From Symbiodinium natans (taxonomy: Eukaryota > Sar > Dinophyceae > Suessiales > Symbiodiniaceae), in assembly GCA_905221605.1 (NCBI GenBank), contig CAJNDS010000002.1, positions 1,987,690 through 2,051,689 on the forward strand: a DNA stretch of 64,000 nt. The letters run 5' to 3'. Positions 36,869 through 45,152 of this stretch are shown here, one piece after another. Position numbers and translations under genes: made by a program. Within the stretch, counting starts at the first letter, position 1. Each line of letters opens with the position of its first letter. The notes beneath the pieces are model-generated. The model was not told the origin of the DNA. It did no database searches and was given only the letters and a program-made list of their open reading frames with translations.

Positions 36869-37376
36869 GCCCTCGCTTGTTGTTTTAGGGCTTCCATTTC
36901 GGGGTTTCTAGTGGTTTGCAGGGTTGCTAAGGAATTAGGGTTTCAAGGTATGGGTTTAGGGTTTGGGTAGTGGGTTGCTTGTTTACGATGCGGAGATTAC
37001 CGTTTGGGTTCAGGGTTGTCGGGTCTAGGGTTTGGGGCTCGAGTGTAGGTTTAAAATTTCGTGTTTTGGGTCGAGGGTCTAGGACTCAGGCTTTTTTAGG
37101 GCTCAGGGTTTAGAATTAATGTTAAGGATTTCAGTCTTAATTAGGGTCTAGGTTTAGTGTCTTGGTTTTTTTGGGTGTTGGCGGTTCTCCGCTTTTCAGA
37201 GATTGTTTAGGGTCTAGGATTTGCCGGTTAGTGGTTACAACTAGTGGGTGGGGAAGGGTCCTTTGCTCAAAACCAATAGATGCAAACACGTTACTGCAAA
37301 CCCCAACTCTTTTCTCCCAACCCTTTCAATCGACCCTGTCCCCTAAACCCTTCACCCCAAACCCTCGACCCTAAAC
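36869..37376 (+). other. Host intron 5' part, before the retroelement
   Basis: G-rich TTTAGGG-like repeats to about 37250, then C-rich CCCTAAA-like DNA up to the spliced-leader border. No exon seen. Confidence 0.7.
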
Positions 37377-37397
37377 CCGTAGCCATTTTGGCTCAAG
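37377..37397 (+). other. Dinoflagellate spliced-leader sequence
   Basis: CCGTAGCCATTTTGGCTCAA plus a final G matches 21 of the 22 nt of the conserved dinoflagellate SL that is trans-spliced onto nuclear mRNAs (the first, variable base is not matched). It abuts CCCTAAA-type host DNA on the left and element DNA on the right. Its presence in the genome means the element copy derives from a mature trans-spliced transcript. Confidence 0.96.
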
Positions 37398-37413
37398 CCG
37401 CAACTTTTAGGCT
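37398..37413 (+). repeat. 16-bp element 5' leader shared with the 3' spacer
   Basis: CCGCAACTTTTAGGCT recurs at 44346-44361, where it is directly preceded by TTTTGCGTAG, a plausible trans-splice acceptor. Here that upstream part is replaced by the SL. Confidence 0.9.
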
Positions 37414-37423
37414 TAAGTTAAAG

Positions 37424-37984
37424 ATGAAGTGTCACTGGTGTGGGAGCGAGCCCTGTTTGGAGCCCCGGTTGTTGAAATCAAACCTAGTGGGATGCGCTGT
37501 TTGCAGAGAAGTGGACCGGCTCCGAGGGATCGTTAATCTCATACCTGTAGTTCAGCATCCCAACTTGCTCAATGAACTTCGCATCTTCAATTCTCGATTC
37601 AGGGACTGGACTACAACTCGTTTCGGGGGGCCCCCGGTTGATTATCAGGCACCACCTCCACAGCCTGAAGCCTCATTGTCCCACAGCATCAAAGCCCGTC
37701 CTCAAGAACCCGCGGGGCCTCCTCCTAGCTGGGTACGTAGTAGTGCCTCTGACCGCCATAGACCTACGGTTGTTGCTCGTCCTGCGCTGCCACGATCCAG
37801 AGCTGCTGCAAGTGCCGAGCCGGAGAGCACGGGTACTACGGAGACAAAGCACAAGAGGAAGAAGAAAAACAAGGGGCAGCGACGGGAGGATTGGAAGAGA
37901 GCGCGGTCGGGGATTTATCGTGGGCGTGAAGACCCCATTGGTGAAACCGTCTCCGACGCGGAGAGCGATTCCAATCTTGATTGA
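37424..37984 (+). CDS. Retroelement ORF1, zinc-knuckle-like protein
   Basis: 186 codons. The start is the first ATG after the spliced leader; an earlier in-frame ATG at 37280 lies in host DNA. The N-terminus has KCHWCGSEPC and then GCAVC, a C-x2-C-x4-C ... C-x2-C pattern likely to bind zinc. The middle is Pro-rich and the C-terminus has a basic KHKRKKKNKGQRR stretch and an acidic tail. It may be a nucleic-acid-binding nucleocapsid-type protein. It ends 32 bp before the Gag-like ATG. Confidence 0.8.
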   Translation: MKCHWCGSEPCLEPRLLKSNLVGCAVCREVDRLRGIVNLIPVVQHPNLLNELRIFNSRFRDWTTTRFGGPPVDYQAPPPQPEASLSHSIKARPQEPAGPPPSWVRSSASDRHRPTVVARPALPRSRAAASAEPESTGTTETKHKRKKKNKGQRREDWKRARSGIYRGREDPIGETVSDAESDSNLD

Positions 37985-38016
37985 GTCTTGATTGCACTGC
38001 ACCTTTTTGTACTTTG

Positions 38017-39420
38017 ATGCCTCCCAGGGTTCGTCGAAAGCCTTCGTCTAGGACACGTGGTTCTGGTCAAAAGAGTGATCCGGGTGCTGGAAAGTCCAGA
38101 GTTCGACTCTTTGGCAAGGGTAAGGTGTTCGATTACAAGGGCCGCTTGCAAAGGGGAGAATCCCTCGAGATTGCGGAAGTGCCGCTTGAATTTTGGAAGC
38201 CAGGAGGTGAGTATTGTATTTTGGGTAATTATTGGGGAAAGCAGACACTTATTTTTGGTGAACTGGAGCGAGTGAGTATTGAGCGGAGTGGGTCCTATTT
38301 GCAGGTGGTTGTAAGAGGGAGTGACAACCTAGAGTTGGTAAAATGGTGCGAGACCGAAGCAGCAGGCGGTGTGAGCCCCGAAGTTTTCGTTCACCTTTGC
38401 CCCGCAGGTTGCCCTCAGACATCCATAGGCCCGAACACGCTTCACGCACAGCAGCTGGTCCCAGGAGATCCCGCAGCCCCTTGGTTAGGAAACGTACGAG
38501 CATTTCAGGTGAAGGACAGGGGCGGAGAGCAGAGGTTGGAGCAGGAATTGGCAGCTATCGCGGGGAATCCGGGGGCAGGCGTCTTCGGGAAAGGGGAGAT
38601 ACCTGGCGAGGGCCCAGGAGCCAAGAAGAGGAAAAACCTCACAGGAGATCACACTTTCGAGGGGAGCCCCTTAGACCCCCATCTCACTCTAAAGCAGGCC
38701 CTCAAAAGCACCAGCAAGAAAGAGAAGCGGAGGAAGAAGAAGAAAGGGAGGAAAGCACGGAGCAAGAGCAGCAGGGACAGCAGCGTGAGCAGCATCAGCA
38801 GCGATGGCGAGAGCTCCGGGGATTCAGAAGATGCAGGTCACCTTCTCAAAGACTCGCATCGGATCCGCCGCATTTCCCGGCGAGCTCCCGGAGCCTTGGT
38901 CCGTCACGCGCTCGAGGAAGTCAGCAGACTGTTGGTGGAGAGTTTCGGGGAGGAGCGCACGAACAAGATCAAGCCCCTTTTCCTCAAATACACGAGGTTG
39001 CATATCATGAACAAGCAGCTCACCCCAGCGCAGAAGAGAGAGACTTTGACCCTTGTGTACTGCCTAGACAAGCTGGTTCAGAGAGACATTCTGGGGTGCC
39101 TCGACATCCTGGTGCAACGTTTGAAAGCGATCGAACTAGTTCTGGGAGGTGCCTCATGGCAGGTCGCGCAGAATATGGAACTGGTGCCCCTGGAGCAGGA
39201 GAGAATCAGCAGCTTATCCGAAGCCCAGGAGGCGACGAAGTCATTCAGAGCGGATTTCAAGGTCTCTCGGGACTTGGGGAAAGGGGGCAAAGGTTGGTTT
39301 CAGAAGGGCGAAAGCAAAGGGAAGTTCACATGGAAAGGAAAAGAGGGAGGAAAAGGAGCCAAGGGGGGAGCAAAGGACGCTGGAGGAGCGGCGCGCGTGG
39401 ATCCCGTTCGCCCCCACTGA
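38017..39420 (+). CDS. Retroelement Gag-like protein
   Basis: 467 codons from ATG at 38017, frame 1. The N-terminal third has a globular-looking segment (FDYKGRLQRGESLEIAEVPL, then an FWKPGGEY run). A Lys/Arg/Ser stretch lies near residues 230-275, followed by a helical segment (RRAPGALVRHALEEVSRLLV) and a Gly/Lys-rich tail suited to RNA binding. Position before Pol and composition suggest a Gag/structural role; no named domain was recognised. From 38343 its coding DNA overlaps the open Pol frame. Confidence 0.78.
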   Translation: MPPRVRRKPSSRTRGSGQKSDPGAGKSRVRLFGKGKVFDYKGRLQRGESLEIAEVPLEFWKPGGEYCILGNYWGKQTLIFGELERVSIERSGSYLQVVVRGSDNLELVKWCETEAAGGVSPEVFVHLCPAGCPQTSIGPNTLHAQQLVPGDPAAPWLGNVRAFQVKDRGGEQRLEQELAAIAGNPGAGVFGKGEIPGEGPGAKKRKNLTGDHTFEGSPLDPHLTLKQALKSTSKKEKRRKKKKGRKARSKSSRDSSVSSISSDGESSGDSEDAGHLLKDSHRIRRISRRAPGALVRHALEEVSRLLVESFGEERTNKIKPLFLKYTRLHIMNKQLTPAQKRETLTLVYCLDKLVQRDILGCLDILVQRLKAIELVLGGASWQVAQNMELVPLEQERISSLSEAQEATKSFRADFKVSRDLGKGGKGWFQKGESKGKFTWKGKEGGKGAKGGAKDAGGAARVDPVRPH

Positions 39421-42400
39421 AGCACCGAGGCCCCGGCTCTCCTCTTCCTAGGAGGGTAGGGGTGTCGTGTGTTTCCGCTGCTGGTCCAAGGAGTGGACCC
39501 TTGGGCGACGCAGCGGTGGGGGCAAAGCCTCCCGCCAGCAATGACGGGTTGGATGACTCTTCGTTTTCGGTTCCTTTGAGTTCGAAGCTATTGGGTTCTT
39601 CTATTTTGGATTTGGCTCTGGGCAGATGTTTGCAGAGTTCGTTTGGCGTTTGGCTGAATAAGTTCTGCGAGGGTACAGAAGGTTTGACGGCTGGGAAAAA
39701 ACGAAATCGTGAAGATATTTTTCCCCTGCCCCTGCCTGGGCCAAAGTCCTTACCTGAGTGCTCCGAAAGAGACGACCCTGAAGCTTCATGGATGTTAGTT
39801 TTGGTGGCAAGCCTGAATTACATGCATGGTGGTCAAGACTCCTCATTTTCAGCTTGGCCGGGAACCCCTTTGCAGCAACAGATCATATCTTATTTGCGAA
39901 GTCGAGTACGCCTTTTCATGGAAAATGAGTTCACCATTGAGGCAGTTGATTGGGAAGAATTTTTCAAGGTCACAAGCGTTTCCTATTCAGGCGAAGAGGT
40001 GAAGGTTGCCCGTTGGACCAACTGGGAGCACATTAAGCCAGCTCTCCCATACGGACATATTGCGAGCATCCCTGCTTTGGACTTGGCAGAGGACGGTGTT
40101 CGTGATTTACTGTTGCATCCAACAAAGTATCTGAAAAAAGGTTTTGAGGACCGCCCAGTTCGACCTTCAAGGGTTATGGTTCGAGATGAAGATTGGGGAC
40201 CGTTGGCTCGGGGTTTGGTACAATATGACCTGTGCGCTATACTACCTCGCTCAGCGCTGCAAACAGCAGGAGGTGAGCCCATCCACAATGGTTTGTTTGG
40301 AGTAGAGAAAGGAGACGAAATGGATGGCGTTGCCATTCACCGACTCATAATGAATTTGATACCGCTCAACTCAGTCTCACAATCAGTCGAGGGGGACGTT
40401 GGTACCCTACCCCTGCTCTCTCAGATGAATTCTCTCCAGATGCATCCTGATGAACACCTTGTCGTGTCGTCTGAGGATTTGAAGTGCATGTTTTATCTTT
40501 TCGAAATGCCTTCAAGCTGGTTGCCACTGTTGAGCTTCAATCGGCCAGTTCCTGATGACCTGATCCCTCCACACTGTTCAGAACCCTGCTATTTGTGCGC
40601 GAAAGTTCTCCCGATGGGTTACCTCAACTCAGTCGGAGTTGCTCAGCACTTGCATCGAAACCTTATCCGTAAGGTTCAGGGCGGACCCACTCGGCTGTTG
40701 AGCAGTGCGGAAGTTCGGAAGGACAGACCAGCCACGAACTCCAATCCCATGTGGAGGGTTTATTTGGACAACTTTGACCTTTTGGAGAAAGTCAGTCCGC
40801 GCATGAGTTCCCTGCTTGAGGGGTCGGTGTCACCCGACTTGGAGCCGCTTTTGGATGAGTATCGTCGCGCTGGCTTGCCACTGAATAGCAAGAAATCGGT
40901 CAAACAATCTACCCATGCCGAAGTTCAGGGAGCTGAGATAGATGGTATCTCTGGTTTGGCCCGGCCAAAAAAGGATAAGTTGAGTCGGTATGTGGGAGCT
41001 GTTTTGGGACTGTTGAAAAAAGGCAAAAGCACTCAAAAGCAGATGCAAGTCGTCAGCGGCGGTCTGGTGTATTTTGCGATGCTTCGGAGGCCTTTGATGA
41101 GTGTCCTGAACTATGTGTGGCGATTCATCCACAGCTTTGACCTTTGTTCTCATCATGTTCTCACTCTTCCTTCGGGCGTCATGTCGGAGCTCCTCATGTT
41201 CCTTGGTCTCCTGCCGCTAGCCCACATGGACTTTCGCACTGAGGTATCGGGCATTGTCACGGCCAGCGATGCTTCCTGCCTAGGTGGAGGACTCTGTGCG
41301 TCAGATGGGCTCACTCCGTTTGGTTTGAAAGTCTCCCAGTCTGGCTTCAGGGGCGACTATGAACCAGATGTCCCTGATGGCGGCGTCGTCTGTGTCTGCC
41401 TATGCGATGATATCAGTTGCCTGAGGGTAGCTCTGGAACTTTTGCGGTCAAGAGTTGTGCTGCATGTGTCAGTGGGTTCGGATGAAACTGCCAAAAGGGT
41501 CGTGGAAAGCCACTTCCCAGATGTGATCTTCGTTGACAACGTGGATTCTATATCCGAAACTATGTGTTTAGAGTGGGCCGGTAAGGCCAGCAATGCCCAG
41601 TTGGTTTTGGTTGGCTCGGGGGCCAAGGGCCCTCCTGGCCAGTCTGCTTCGCAAGTCCAGACCATGGTGCGCCAACTCCAATCGGTCTTTACCTGGTGCC
41701 CAGTCCACTTCTTTCAGGAAAGCGTGTTCAGCATGGATCCCAATGATCGGGCCAGGATGACGACGGAGGCCCAGGTTTTGCCCTACAAAGCTTGTGCAAG
41801 CGGTCTTTCCCTGGCCAGACGGGAACGTTTGTACTGGTTTGATTGGTCATTGCAGTCTGAAGCTGGGGTCAGCTTGAGGCCGCCCCCCGATTCTTCGCCG
41901 ACAAGCTATGGCGTTGTGACTTTCTCCGCTGCGGTAGATCCTCGGATGGTTTTTGAGCGAGGTTGGAGCCTCCACCCCAAAGCCACATGTTTGAGTACTT
42001 TTACCACGTCTCAACCTTCAGACCTTCCTCGTGCTCACCCAGCTGGTCTGGACAGATGCGACGACATGGCCAAAGCGCGCTGGGCTCAAGACCGCCACCG
42101 TTTTCCACCTTACCAGTACCAAGACTGCAACCTCGTGTGGAAGGGAATGGAAGCTCGCACCCCTTCTGTACATGAGCGCGAACGCATCATGGGACTCCCA
42201 ACGGATTACACTTTCAACTGCCTCAACAAATCTGACATCAAAGCCCGCGCTCACCTGCATGAAGATTGCCGCCTCACCTTGATTGGTAACGCCTGGTCCA
42301 TTCCCGTCGTGGCTTTTTTCGTTCTGCAACTTCTTTCACCTCTCAATCTCTGTCTTGTTTGCAGTCTTTCGGATGCTTTGGACACTCTCTTCAAAGGGTC

Positions 42401-42932
42401 CTCTGCCTACGGGGCGGCTCTCCTCTCCTGGAGGGCCCTCCACCAGGACCCGGGTGTCTTTGCCGCAGAGGGGCTGTTGGTTCGAAAACTCCTTACCCAA
42501 GTCTCTTCAAAAGGAGAAGACGTCCTCCTTCAAGTCGGTGCGGACACTCGTTCATACCAGCGTTTCCGTACTTCCATTCCCGCGTCGCTCTGGCGCTGGA
42601 ACGAGATCTGCGGCTGGAAATGGCCTTCCCCTCATTCGGATCACATCAACAAGCTCGAGCTTCGAGCCATCTACACTTCTTTTCGTTGGCGCATTTTGCG
42701 CAAGAAACATCTGCGGATGCGATTTCTTCATTTGACCGACTCCATGGTCTGCCTCCATATTTTGAACCGAGGCCGCAGCAGTTCCCGAAAAATTCAGTGC
42801 CTCATGAGCCGCTTGAGTTCCCTTTTACTAGCTACTGGAGTACATCCTGTCATTGCTTATGTCTCCACTCATTCCAATCCGGCCGACAGGCCGAGCCGTC
42901 GCGCTCGTGTGAAACGCAAATGGCGAAAGTAA
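38343..42932 (+). CDS. Retroelement Pol: RT, RNase H and C5-methyltransferase-like domain
   Basis: 1529 codons from an ATG at 38343 in frame 3. Family-like sequence starts only after about 39420, so the true start or a -1 shift from Gag is unsettled. RT follows: SSEDLKCMFYLFEMPSSW (motif A), LPMGYLNSVGVAQH (motif B) and VYLDNFD (motif C, Asn in place of the second Asp) near 40758-40778. TASDASCLGGGLCAS near 41260 looks like the first RNase H strand. A C5-MTase-like block (about 41386-42325) contains HFPDVIFVDNVDS, FFQESVFSMD, RRERLYWF, ERIMGLPTDYTF and LIGNAWSIPV. RNase H then resumes with INKLELRAIY, LTDSMVCLHILNRG and STHSNPADRPSRR. Expected roles are cDNA synthesis, RNA removal and possibly DNA methylation; motif IV of the MTase lacks Pro-Cys. 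Confidence 0.9.
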   Translation: MVRDRSSRRCEPRSFRSPLPRRLPSDIHRPEHASRTAAGPRRSRSPLVRKRTSISGEGQGRRAEVGAGIGSYRGESGGRRLRERGDTWRGPRSQEEEKPHRRSHFRGEPLRPPSHSKAGPQKHQQEREAEEEEEREESTEQEQQGQQREQHQQRWRELRGFRRCRSPSQRLASDPPHFPASSRSLGPSRARGSQQTVGGEFRGGAHEQDQAPFPQIHEVAYHEQAAHPSAEERDFDPCVLPRQAGSERHSGVPRHPGATFESDRTSSGRCLMAGRAEYGTGAPGAGENQQLIRSPGGDEVIQSGFQGLSGLGERGQRLVSEGRKQREVHMERKRGRKRSQGGSKGRWRSGARGSRSPPLKHRGPGSPLPRRVGVSCVSAAGPRSGPLGDAAVGAKPPASNDGLDDSSFSVPLSSKLLGSSILDLALGRCLQSSFGVWLNKFCEGTEGLTAGKKRNREDIFPLPLPGPKSLPECSERDDPEASWMLVLVASLNYMHGGQDSSFSAWPGTPLQQQIISYLRSRVRLFMENEFTIEAVDWEEFFKVTSVSYSGEEVKVARWTNWEHIKPALPYGHIASIPALDLAEDGVRDLLLHPTKYLKKGFEDRPVRPSRVMVRDEDWGPLARGLVQYDLCAILPRSALQTAGGEPIHNGLFGVEKGDEMDGVAIHRLIMNLIPLNSVSQSVEGDVGTLPLLSQMNSLQMHPDEHLVVSSEDLKCMFYLFEMPSSWLPLLSFNRPVPDDLIPPHCSEPCYLCAKVLPMGYLNSVGVAQHLHRNLIRKVQGGPTRLLSSAEVRKDRPATNSNPMWRVYLDNFDLLEKVSPRMSSLLEGSVSPDLEPLLDEYRRAGLPLNSKKSVKQSTHAEVQGAEIDGISGLARPKKDKLSRYVGAVLGLLKKGKSTQKQMQVVSGGLVYFAMLRRPLMSVLNYVWRFIHSFDLCSHHVLTLPSGVMSELLMFLGLLPLAHMDFRTEVSGIVTASDASCLGGGLCASDGLTPFGLKVSQSGFRGDYEPDVPDGGVVCVCLCDDISCLRVALELLRSRVVLHVSVGSDETAKRVVESHFPDVIFVDNVDSISETMCLEWAGKASNAQLVLVGSGAKGPPGQSASQVQTMVRQLQSVFTWCPVHFFQESVFSMDPNDRARMTTEAQVLPYKACASGLSLARRERLYWFDWSLQSEAGVSLRPPPDSSPTSYGVVTFSAAVDPRMVFERGWSLHPKATCLSTFTTSQPSDLPRAHPAGLDRCDDMAKARWAQDRHRFPPYQYQDCNLVWKGMEARTPSVHERERIMGLPTDYTFNCLNKSDIKARAHLHEDCRLTLIGNAWSIPVVAFFVLQLLSPLNLCLVCSLSDALDTLFKGSSAYGAALLSWRALHQDPGVFAAEGLLVRKLLTQVSSKGEDVLLQVGADTRSYQRFRTSIPASLWRWNEICGWKWPSPHSDHINKLELRAIYTSFRWRILRKKHLRMRFLHLTDSMVCLHILNRGRSSSRKIQCLMSRLSSLLLATGVHPVIAYVSTHSNPADRPSRRARVKRKWRK

Positions 42933-43909
42933 GAGCCCTCCCGAAGGGCCGAACTAAGCAGGACAGGAAACAGTTACGCCAAAGTTTGGGAACTCTTCGC
43001 TCCTTGACAGTAGCGCCGAAAACTCGGGTTCGCTACGATAGAGCTCTTCAGACCTTTTACCTTTTTGTTAAAGGCATAGGACAACGCGTCCCAGATGATG
43101 CTTTTTCTCTGGACCGATTGTTTTCGCAGTTCATGGAACACTTGTGGCAAGAAGGGGATACCCTCTCACTTGCAACTGATGGGCTGTCAGGGCTCCAGGA
43201 CCTCCGACCTTCTCTCCGAGGCTGTCTGGCCCTCTCGTGGAGGTTAGTTAAAACGTGGCAGAAGTGCGAAATGCCGGACAGGGCAGCTCCACTGCCCGAG
43301 GATTTGCTGCAGGCCCTGGCTGGGTGCTTGCTGTTACAGCAAAAGCCGGAGATGTCTTTGGCGCTTCTAGTCGGTTTTTACTGTCTCTTGCGAACAGGGG
43401 AGCTCTTGGCTCTTCAAGCCTGTCATGTACAAATCAGTCCAAAACAAGATTTTGCCATCCTCAATCTGGGGTATACCAAAACATCCCACCGAACTGGAAC
43501 AGAAGATTCCATGACTTTGAGGGTGGATTTTGTTTGCCGGGCCTTGGCAAAATGGAAGTCTCGGGTTTCACCGAACACTTTTCTTGTCCCTTTCTCCTCG
43601 TATCTCTTTCGCCAGCAGTTCGATCAAGTTCTCAAAACGCTGGGCCTTTCAGACTGGGGCTTTCGCCCCTACAGCCTCAGACGGGGCGGTGCGACGATGT
43701 ATTTTCAGAAAAATCCTTCCTTCGACTCGGTACGTCAACTTGGCCGATGGGGTTCTGACAGAACCGCCCGCATCTACATCAATGATGCTGTAGCACGCCT
43801 CGCAGAAATTACTTTTGATGTATCTCGTCCTCCGCTGAAGACTCCTTTCACTTTTTTCAGACACACGTTGCGGCTTGATCGCGTTGCGACACATGGGGGA
43901 CGTGGATAA
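42920..43909 (+). CDS. Retroelement tyrosine recombinase
   Basis: 329 codons; the ATG at 42920 overlaps the Pol stop by 13 bp in another frame. The frame is open further upstream without an ATG, inside the RNase H coding region. The catalytic core shows LLRTGELLAL (box I Arg), YSLRRGGAT (box II, Tyr where HxxR usually has His) and ARIYINDA (nucleophile Tyr). The N-terminal half has the expected helical core-binding region. It should integrate circular cDNA by site-specific strand exchange without target duplication, as in DIRS/Ngaro elements. The stop lies within the first bases of the B1 repeat. Confidence 0.9.
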   Translation: MAKVRALPKGRTKQDRKQLRQSLGTLRSLTVAPKTRVRYDRALQTFYLFVKGIGQRVPDDAFSLDRLFSQFMEHLWQEGDTLSLATDGLSGLQDLRPSLRGCLALSWRLVKTWQKCEMPDRAAPLPEDLLQALAGCLLLQQKPEMSLALLVGFYCLLRTGELLALQACHVQISPKQDFAILNLGYTKTSHRTGTEDSMTLRVDFVCRALAKWKSRVSPNTFLVPFSSYLFRQQFDQVLKTLGLSDWGFRPYSLRRGGATMYFQKNPSFDSVRQLGRWGSDRTARIYINDAVARLAEITFDVSRPPLKTPFTFFRHTLRLDRVATHGGRG

Positions 43910-44296
43910 GAGGGGGCTCTGCCTAAAAATCGAGAAAAGATGTTTTTAACTTGGTTTGGTGTCCTAACCCCTGTTACAGTATTAGTGTAGAGCCCTCTCT
44001 TCAGAGCGCGCAGCTTAAGGACCCATGCACACTCGTAAGGGTATCTGAGATGCCCGTGCAGCATGCCATCTTGAATTGTAAGCTGCAGACTTGTAAGGGT
44101 ATCTGAGATGCCCGTGCAGCATGCCATCTTGAATTGTAAGCTGCATGTTGGGTCCCAAAAGCTTTTGGCTGTAGACTTGTAATGCCGACTTGTAAAAACA
44201 GCCGAAGCACCTTTCGAAAGCTGTGCCTCTAGTCTTTTCTTTTGGTACAAGACTCTGCGCCCTCGCAGACAAAACGAAGGGAGCGTGCGAAGCCTT
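43904..44296 (+). repeat. Retroelement repeat B1
   Basis: 393 bp identical by eye to 44422-44814. It overlaps the last codons of the recombinase and holds an internal 58-bp tandem pair (44031-44088, 44089-44146). B1 and B2 are direct repeats around a unique spacer, as in Ngaro-type split direct repeats. Confidence 0.95.
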
Positions 44297-44421
44297 TGAC
44301 GTAACCTTGGTAGTTTAAGGCGTAGCGCGAACTTGTTTTGCGTAGCCGCAACTTTTAGGCTCCCACCCTCCCGCCCAGGTTCTGCTACGCACAGGCGTGT
44401 TCTCTCCACTGGTTTTTTTTC
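44297..44421 (+). repeat. Retroelement A2-like spacer with putative trans-splice acceptor
   Basis: 125 bp between B1 and B2. It contains CTTGTTTTGCGTAG followed by the 16-bp leader also found right after the SL at the 5' end. In split-repeat YR elements this A2 copy templates the 5' end. Here only the part downstream of the AG is present at the 5' end. Confidence 0.85.
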
Positions 44422-44814
44422 GGATAAGAGGGGGCTCTGCCTAAAAATCGAGAAAAGATGTTTTTAACTTGGTTTGGTGTCCTAACCCCTGTTACAGTAT
44501 TAGTGTAGAGCCCTCTCTTCAGAGCGCGCAGCTTAAGGACCCATGCACACTCGTAAGGGTATCTGAGATGCCCGTGCAGCATGCCATCTTGAATTGTAAG
44601 CTGCAGACTTGTAAGGGTATCTGAGATGCCCGTGCAGCATGCCATCTTGAATTGTAAGCTGCATGTTGGGTCCCAAAAGCTTTTGGCTGTAGACTTGTAA
44701 TGCCGACTTGTAAAAACAGCCGAAGCACCTTTCGAAAGCTGTGCCTCTAGTCTTTTCTTTTGGTACAAGACTCTGCGCCCTCGCAGACAAAACGAAGGGA
44801 GCGTGCGAAGCCTT
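44422..44814 (+). repeat. Retroelement repeat B2, 3' end
   Basis: Second copy of the 393-bp repeat, offset exactly 518 bp from B1. Host CCCTAAA-like DNA resumes soon after 44815, marking the element end. No target-site duplication was seen. Confidence 0.95.
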
Positions 44815-45152
44815 AAACCCTTGTCGCTGGGCGTTTTCCTTGAACTGCCCGAGCCCTGTGCTCTAAACCATACGCCTATCATACGCCCCTTTAACCCGAA
44901 GCACTTTACTTCAGCAAACCTCTACCCTAAACCCTACACACGAAACCGACACGCAATACACGCACACAAACACACGAGCACACGAACGCACGCGAAGCCA
45001 CACGCGCGCACCCGAACGCACTCGAACGCACACGAACGCAGACGAACGCACGCGAACGCACACGCGCGCACGCGTGCGCGAAAGCACACGTGCGAACACG
45101 AACGCATGCGAACGCACACACAGACACACAGAGACACAGACACAGAGACCAG
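44815..45152 (+). other. Host intron 3' part with ACGAACGC minisatellite
   Basis: C-rich intron DNA is followed at about 44940-45140 by a minisatellite of ACGAACGCACGCGA-type units grading into CACAGA, which runs straight into the acceptor of the next exon. Confidence 0.85.

Follow-up and report, generated by a model that had tools for sequence, protein, structure and literature searches.

Spliced-leader-headed copies of split-repeat tyrosine recombinase retroelements in Symbiodinium natans and their probable origin from trans-spliced RNA

Two tyrosine recombinase (YR) retroelement copies in the genome of Symbiodinium natans begin with the dinoflagellate spliced leader (SL), which stands where the upstream portion of their 5′ repeat (A1) would be. 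Read from their sequences, these SL-headed copies, which belong to two families, are products of RNA whose trans-splicing used an AG within the A repeat. One lies in the window, the whole stretch of 64,000 nt analysed here (part of contig C2; genome of 759 Mb in 2543 contigs), and its derivation from trans-spliced element RNA is very probable. The other, C2434, has close A1-headed relatives, C2210 and C647, in the same genome.

By its sequence features, the window element (7.4 kb, Table 1) is a split-direct-repeat YR retroelement close to the published SymbioDIRS elements: of the layout A1-ORFs-B1-A2-B2 found in PAT, Ngaro, VIPER and SymbioDIRS, it displays B1, A2 and B2. ORF1 matched no Pfam family, and its residues 1-95 are 43% identical to the first ORF of the canonical relatives C557, C1125 and C2229. 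The pol frame gave no Pfam match either, reverse transcriptase and methyltransferase included. Its putative reverse transcriptase motif, YLDN and not YxDD, is invariant across 10 aligned pol proteins, its methyltransferase region reads PPGQ where several relatives show PPCQ in the pol alignment, and its C-terminus is one that we take, by resemblance, to be RNase H. The YR ORF shares the invariant R, SLRR, GRW and Y across 11 aligned sequences, and some of its relatives carry PF00589. Searches with the pol region gave 504 protein matches at E ≤ 0.001; among the best 120 of these many have PF00145, and those named to species are from Symbiodinium. Each B repeat also contains an internal tandem duplication (44026-44145 and 44544-44663; 62-nt self-matches at an offset of 58 nt, 97% alike).

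SymbioDIRS-Dnmt3 has been described with A-coding-B-A-B repeats, a separate YR ORF, a divergent reverse transcriptase and a methyltransferase in pol (PMC5890265), and the reverse transcriptases of Symbiodinium DIRS elements are reported to be divergent from Pfam (de Mendoza et al. 2018, PMC5890265). Layout and content of the window element fit this description, as do its many PF00145-bearing relatives; it differs in its SL 5′ end and in its methyltransferase region, which is degenerate, with neither a Pfam match nor the PPCQ block. The word 'leader' does not occur in the main text of that paper.

Table 1. Features of the window element and its flanks (window positions; a slash marks a joint)
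Feature	Positions	Strand	Description
Left flank	37320-37376	+	Degenerate CCCTAAA-type repeat, ends CCCTAAAC
SL	37377-37397	+	Exact 21 nt; stands in for upstream A1; same substitution in the C2434 copy
Leader	37398-37413	+	16 nt; forms the 3′ part of A, beyond the trans-splice acceptor; identical to 44346-44361
ORF1	37424-37984	+	186 aa; gag-like, judged from position and resemblance
ORF2	37981-39420	+	479-aa open frame; best Pfam PF10500, E 0.072, far under its cut-off
pol open frame	38343-42932	+	Putative divergent reverse transcriptase (YLDN), degenerate C5-methyltransferase region, RNase H-like C-terminus
YR ORF	42920-43909	+	PF00589, E 7e-5, 23 bits; curated cut-off of 27.1 not reached
Repeat B1	43904-44296	+	393 nt, identical to B2
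Repeat A2	44297-44361	+	49 nt ending TTTTGCGTAG (acceptor), then the 16-nt leader; matches relatives' A1/A2 by position
A2-B2 spacer	44362-44421	+	Starts CCCACCCTCCCGCCC; resembles spacers of relatives
Repeat B2	44422-44814	+	393 nt, ends GCCTT like relatives' CCT(T)/A; without poly(A)
Right flank	44815-44820	+	AAACCC; possible target duplication of left flank

The first-pass annotation had described the SL as joined exactly to the leader, and searches with mismatches and shuffles bear this out. With up to 3 mismatches allowed, the SL has a single match in the window, an exact one, and 0 in 100 shuffles; the 16-nt leader that it abuts, CCGCAACTTTTAGGCT, has two matches with up to 2 mismatches allowed, both exact (shuffle mean 0.03). 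As had also been noted, the second leader copy is directly preceded in the window sequence by the acceptor TTTTGCGTAG; it lies inside the internal A2 repeat. Judged by A2, the SL replaces 49 nt of A1, and just 16 nt of A1 are retained. The earlier account of a 5′ repeat partly replaced by the SL stands, with the coordinates of B1, A2 and B2 corrected to those in Table 1. Exact SLs number 205 in the genome, against 0 for the backward-read pattern. The dinoflagellate SL begins with D, that is U, A or G (PMC6050394); this first base is not preserved in the window copy, which has C ahead of CCGTAG.

SL-tagged retrogenes of dinoflagellates are known to stem from SL-bearing RNA that was reverse transcribed and inserted (PMC6050394, PMC12014239, PMC3229502). 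Like them, the window copy retains the SL in DNA, and the AG acceptor at which the SL is joined can be seen in the parental sequence (A2 for the window; A1 of C2210 and C647 as compared with C2434). The retrogenes are host genes, whereas the window copy is a YR element of autonomous type that holds in A2 its own record of the unspliced 5′ end.

C2210, C647 and C2434 exhibit the splicing event directly. C2210 and C2434 represent one element: past the joint they differ at 1 of 555 nt, and across 514 nt of the 3′ block they are identical. C2210 reads TTTCGGCTCATTAG and then CCTGCAACTTTAG, and C2434 reads SL and then CCTGCAACTTTAG, with the SL exactly at the AG preceding the 13-nt leader. C647 begins with an A1 that matches the A1 of C2210 at 55 of 56 positions, and its body differs from C2210 by 2 mismatches in 555 nt. 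A 29-nt probe with up to 2 mismatches found these three 5′ ends genome-wide. A2 is intact in both C2210 and C2434, that of C2434 keeping the unspliced form. Such a pattern is expected if an RNA is trans-spliced at that AG and then reverse transcribed, and the acceptor of the window element falls at the place corresponding to that of the C2210 family. A copy made from trans-spliced element RNA, with the SL replacing A1 upstream of the AG, as had been proposed for the window, is seen in these three 5′ ends.

A protein search located 122 YR-like places in the genome. Set against 191 of the 205 SLs (91 plus 100 of the 114 not followed by C; exact SLs, with mutated ones outside the set), these gave exactly two pairs no more than 12 kb apart on either side, namely the window element, with the SL 5.5 kb upstream on the same strand, and C2434 in the same arrangement. 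SL relics are common in CCCTAAA repeats, so an older relic might already have been at the site when the element inserted right beside it; but in both families the joint coincides exactly with the boundary between AG and leader, A1 lacks its upstream 49-56 nt, and only about 0.06 chance pairs are expected even per 4-kb slot, which leaves this account a negligible chance.

No second DNA copy of the window element, and hence no parent of it, was found in the genome, its 3′ region being single copy; with the best 40 of 250 candidates scored, its 5′ region matched only itself beyond the SL and the first leader bases, and 53 further matches of this query were confined to query positions 3-78. An assembly chimaera, in which an SL-headed gene was fused to the element, would go unnoticed for want of a second copy as a check, but C2434 recurs independently with an exact boundary and a target duplication, and we regard such a fusion as extremely unlikely.

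Including the window, 11 elements have resolved 5′ ends: nine begin with A1 (C2229, C557, C1125, C2210, C2089, C196, C924, C2195 and C647) and two, the window copy and C2434, with the SL. Eight of the A1-headed elements show A1, B1, A2 and B2, with the A1 sequence recurring in their own A2; C647 was read on the 5′ side only, and its A1 end alone was seen. Outside the 11 stand C446 and C1002, whose fetched stretches lack an A1/A2 pair, and C1956, a 61% relative whose 5′ end would lie at or beyond the contig start. The C2089 family has three 5′ ends in the genome, with A1 in all. The first-pass annotation had spoken of a YR retroelement with the SL as its terminus. An SL as the usual 5′ end throughout such elements would agree with the starts of the window copy and C2434; since A1 heads nine of the 11 resolved ends, the SL is not the normal terminus, and such a reading is very unlikely to hold. 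Unrelated DNA in place of the SL in most copies, which the annotation had named as evidence against itself, was not seen among these 11 ends.

Both SL-YR copies sit in CCCTAAA-type telomere-like repeats, versus one of the nine A1 copies (C2210, in CCCTAAG/CCCTAAA repeats), the numbers being small; as this canonical copy also lies within CCCTAAG repeats, the site alone does not exclude a YR. The joint of the window's left flank, CCCTAAAC/CCGTAG, recurs at many SL relics. In C2434, the two flanks share CCTAAACTT as their overlap. The element itself ends in CCT on the right, which leaves AAACTT as the smallest duplication, of 6 bp, or of 5 nt if the final T belongs to the leader as its first base. 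Conventional YR integration is marked by the absence of a target duplication, and C2434 departs from this with AAACTT on both sides. In the window copy AAAC is repeated on both sides, or AAACCC if the CC of the SL is counted, a duplication that is ambiguous because the site itself is CCCTAAA-like. Six canonical copies (C2229, C557, C1125, C2089, C196 and C924) showed no exact duplication by eye; C2195 and C2210 (simple or tandem repeats) and C647 (one side read) stood outside this comparison. An uninserted site for C2434 was not found among the best 40 of 1026 candidates scored. The right ends of canonical and SL copies are alike, CCT(T)/A, or CTT/A in the C2229 family, and poly(A), a mark of SL-tagged retrocopies, is absent at both SL-YR 3′ ends (GCCTT/AAACCC in the window, GATTCCT/AAACTT in C2434).

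CCCTAAA was found no more than 30 nt upstream in 24 of 83 SL relics, the window's included, where 1.6 were expected from background more than 600 nt from SLs, or about 4 with the window's own 5%. The relics were sampled regardless of flank (90 loci from 100 listed of the 205; 88 distinct SLs less 5 SL-RNA genes), an earlier estimate of CCCTAAA enrichment having been biased by the query flank and redone on these flank-independent loci; with a longer key the SL count was 89. CCCTAAA lies within 3 nt in 11 of the 83; TTTAGGG occurs at 5 of them and a GA run at 5. Long GA runs directly or closely before the SL relic, another repeat context, occur at L034, L073, L082, L108 and L118.

Downstream of the SL, CCCTAAA resumes in the same orientation in 10 of 31 loci (33 given, less 2 without an SL; 28 of the 33 from a repeat-biased search), and in the remaining 21 the 1.5 kb read is free of CCCTAAA in this orientation. 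Five of the ten (L007, L008, L012, L017 and L018) have a run of 8-10 A directly before the resumed repeat and look as if processed RNAs had been inserted into interstitial telomere-type repeats; in L003, L009, L023, L025 and L029 the repeat resumes without such a run. Telomerase capping of SL-cDNA ends was considered as the origin of SL-CCCTAAA joints and dropped, because the repeat resumes in these ten loci, right after the A run in five, and because the CCCTAAA tract of the window is decayed though B1 and B2 are identical.

Some LINE (non-LTR) copies in CCCTAAA repeats seem, from their ORFs, to begin with the SL. C2094 (L006/L145) and C205 (L028, L055/L146) have a PF03372 endonuclease ORF after (CCCTAAA)n and the SL, C2094 also has a PF00078 (RVT_1) ORF, and C2329 has an RVT_1 ORF downstream of the SL; C205 is one of the 24 relics, and C2094 and C2329 come from the repeat-biased search. 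Domain scans of 30 SL-downstream ORFs gave no match in 26; L005 (RVT_1), L036 (PUF) and L022 (OTU) scored above the curated cut-off and L052 (Metal_resist) below it. Two further SL contexts were recorded. Six SLs followed by G lie on one strand at C479:102078-129867, with four of the five gaps at about 3.8 kb and the sequence continuing GTACAAATCGGG, probably an SL-RNA gene array. A 7157-bp contig of the IMG/VR viral collection (L031) carries two exact dinoflagellate SLs 147 nt apart, which suggests a dinoflagellate origin for it.

As some LINE copies in these repeats seem to start with the SL, LINE machinery is a candidate inserter of the SL-YR copies, and a target-primed LINE-like route at CCCTAAA repeats is slightly favoured over conventional YR recombination of a circle. 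For this route speak the C2434 duplication, as against none in the six canonical copies, the closeness of SL relics to CCCTAAA and the SL-headed LINE ORFs in such repeats. Target-primed copying into telomeric repeats is performed by the insect LINEs TRAS and SART, in other hosts and with no SL known. SymbioLINE elements are reported to carry target duplications and to be devoid of poly(A) tails (de Mendoza et al. 2018, PMC5890265), so the missing poly(A) of both SL-YR copies is neutral for a SymbioLINE-type route; the same lack sets these copies apart from the A-run inserts at five of the ten loci with downstream CCCTAAA.

An SL-ended cDNA might instead have been inserted by the element's own tyrosine recombinase, with the right end made by normal YR chemistry and the A1-less SL end closed by staggered-cut repair. 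The RNA origin is the same, and the probability of this alternative, which we set somewhat below even, overlaps that of the best explanation. The canonical-like, poly(A)-free right ends of both SL copies agree with it, as does the canonical family member C2210 at the same kind of site, and a 6-bp stagger suits tyrosine recombinases; the absence of a duplication at the six canonical copies tells against it, as does, in small numbers, the concentration of SL copies in CCCTAAA-type DNA (two of two, versus one of nine canonical copies).

With the choice of enzyme set aside, the mechanism as a whole is probable. Host trans-splicing would put the SL in place of the 5′ end of the RNA at the AG within the A repeat. 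In the usual cycle the lost A1 would reappear in new copies, presumably rebuilt from the internal A2, with the 13-16 nt leader common to A1 and A2 as the likely pairing stretch. In the two SL copies this rebuilding would have been skipped and the SL end joined directly to a CCCTAAA-type target, presumably cut enzymatically at CCCT^AAA; a staggered break would account for the 6-bp duplication observed in C2434, the clear case. The A repeat extends past the acceptor marked by the SL by 13 nt in the C2210 family and 16 nt in the window, and the distance from an AG to the end of A is 13 nt in the C2229 family, 14 nt in the C2089 family and 15 or 5 nt in C2195. This spacing fits an A2 that serves to rebuild what trans-splicing removes, and is only suggestive, as chance alone can readily place an AG there. 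Tentatively, the split-repeat YR elements of dinoflagellates may even replicate normally through trans-spliced RNA, with A2 rebuilding the trimmed 5′ sequence via the remaining 13-16 nt of A and the SL-headed copies being cycles frozen before repair.

Other retroelements of SL-using hosts offer partial parallels. VIPER and TATE are YR retroelements of kinetoplastids, which trans-splice; VIPER copies begin with A1 and end with B1-A2-B2, as the canonical relatives do, and TATE sits in telomeric repeats as the SL-YR copies do in telomere-like ones (PMC6681497). The term 'spliced leader' does not occur in the text of that article, which thus describes no SL-headed copies under that name. For the LINE L1Tc of T. 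cruzi, luciferase transcripts from Pr77 promoter constructs are described as lacking the SL (PMC4748587). SL-tagged host retrogenes are established, as cited above, and for an SL-headed YR retroelement we found no report in the open-licence literature. The CCCTAAA insertion sites, the 6-bp duplication of C2434 and the LINE copies that start with the SL in such repeats go beyond the first-pass annotation.

From the SL-headed copies, the 5′ end of a YR retroelement RNA can be placed to the exact base, a point relevant to the model proposed for end restoration from internal repeats in DIRS-type elements. The type of retrotransposon that mediates retroposition in dinoflagellates was given as unknown in the review of Song et al. 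(2018, PMC6050394), with LTR elements (Ty1/copia) thought likelier. The findings further suggest that a sizeable share of retroposition in dinoflagellates enters CCCTAAA-type interstitial repeats, in which LINE copies and short-A-run inserts are SL-headed as well.
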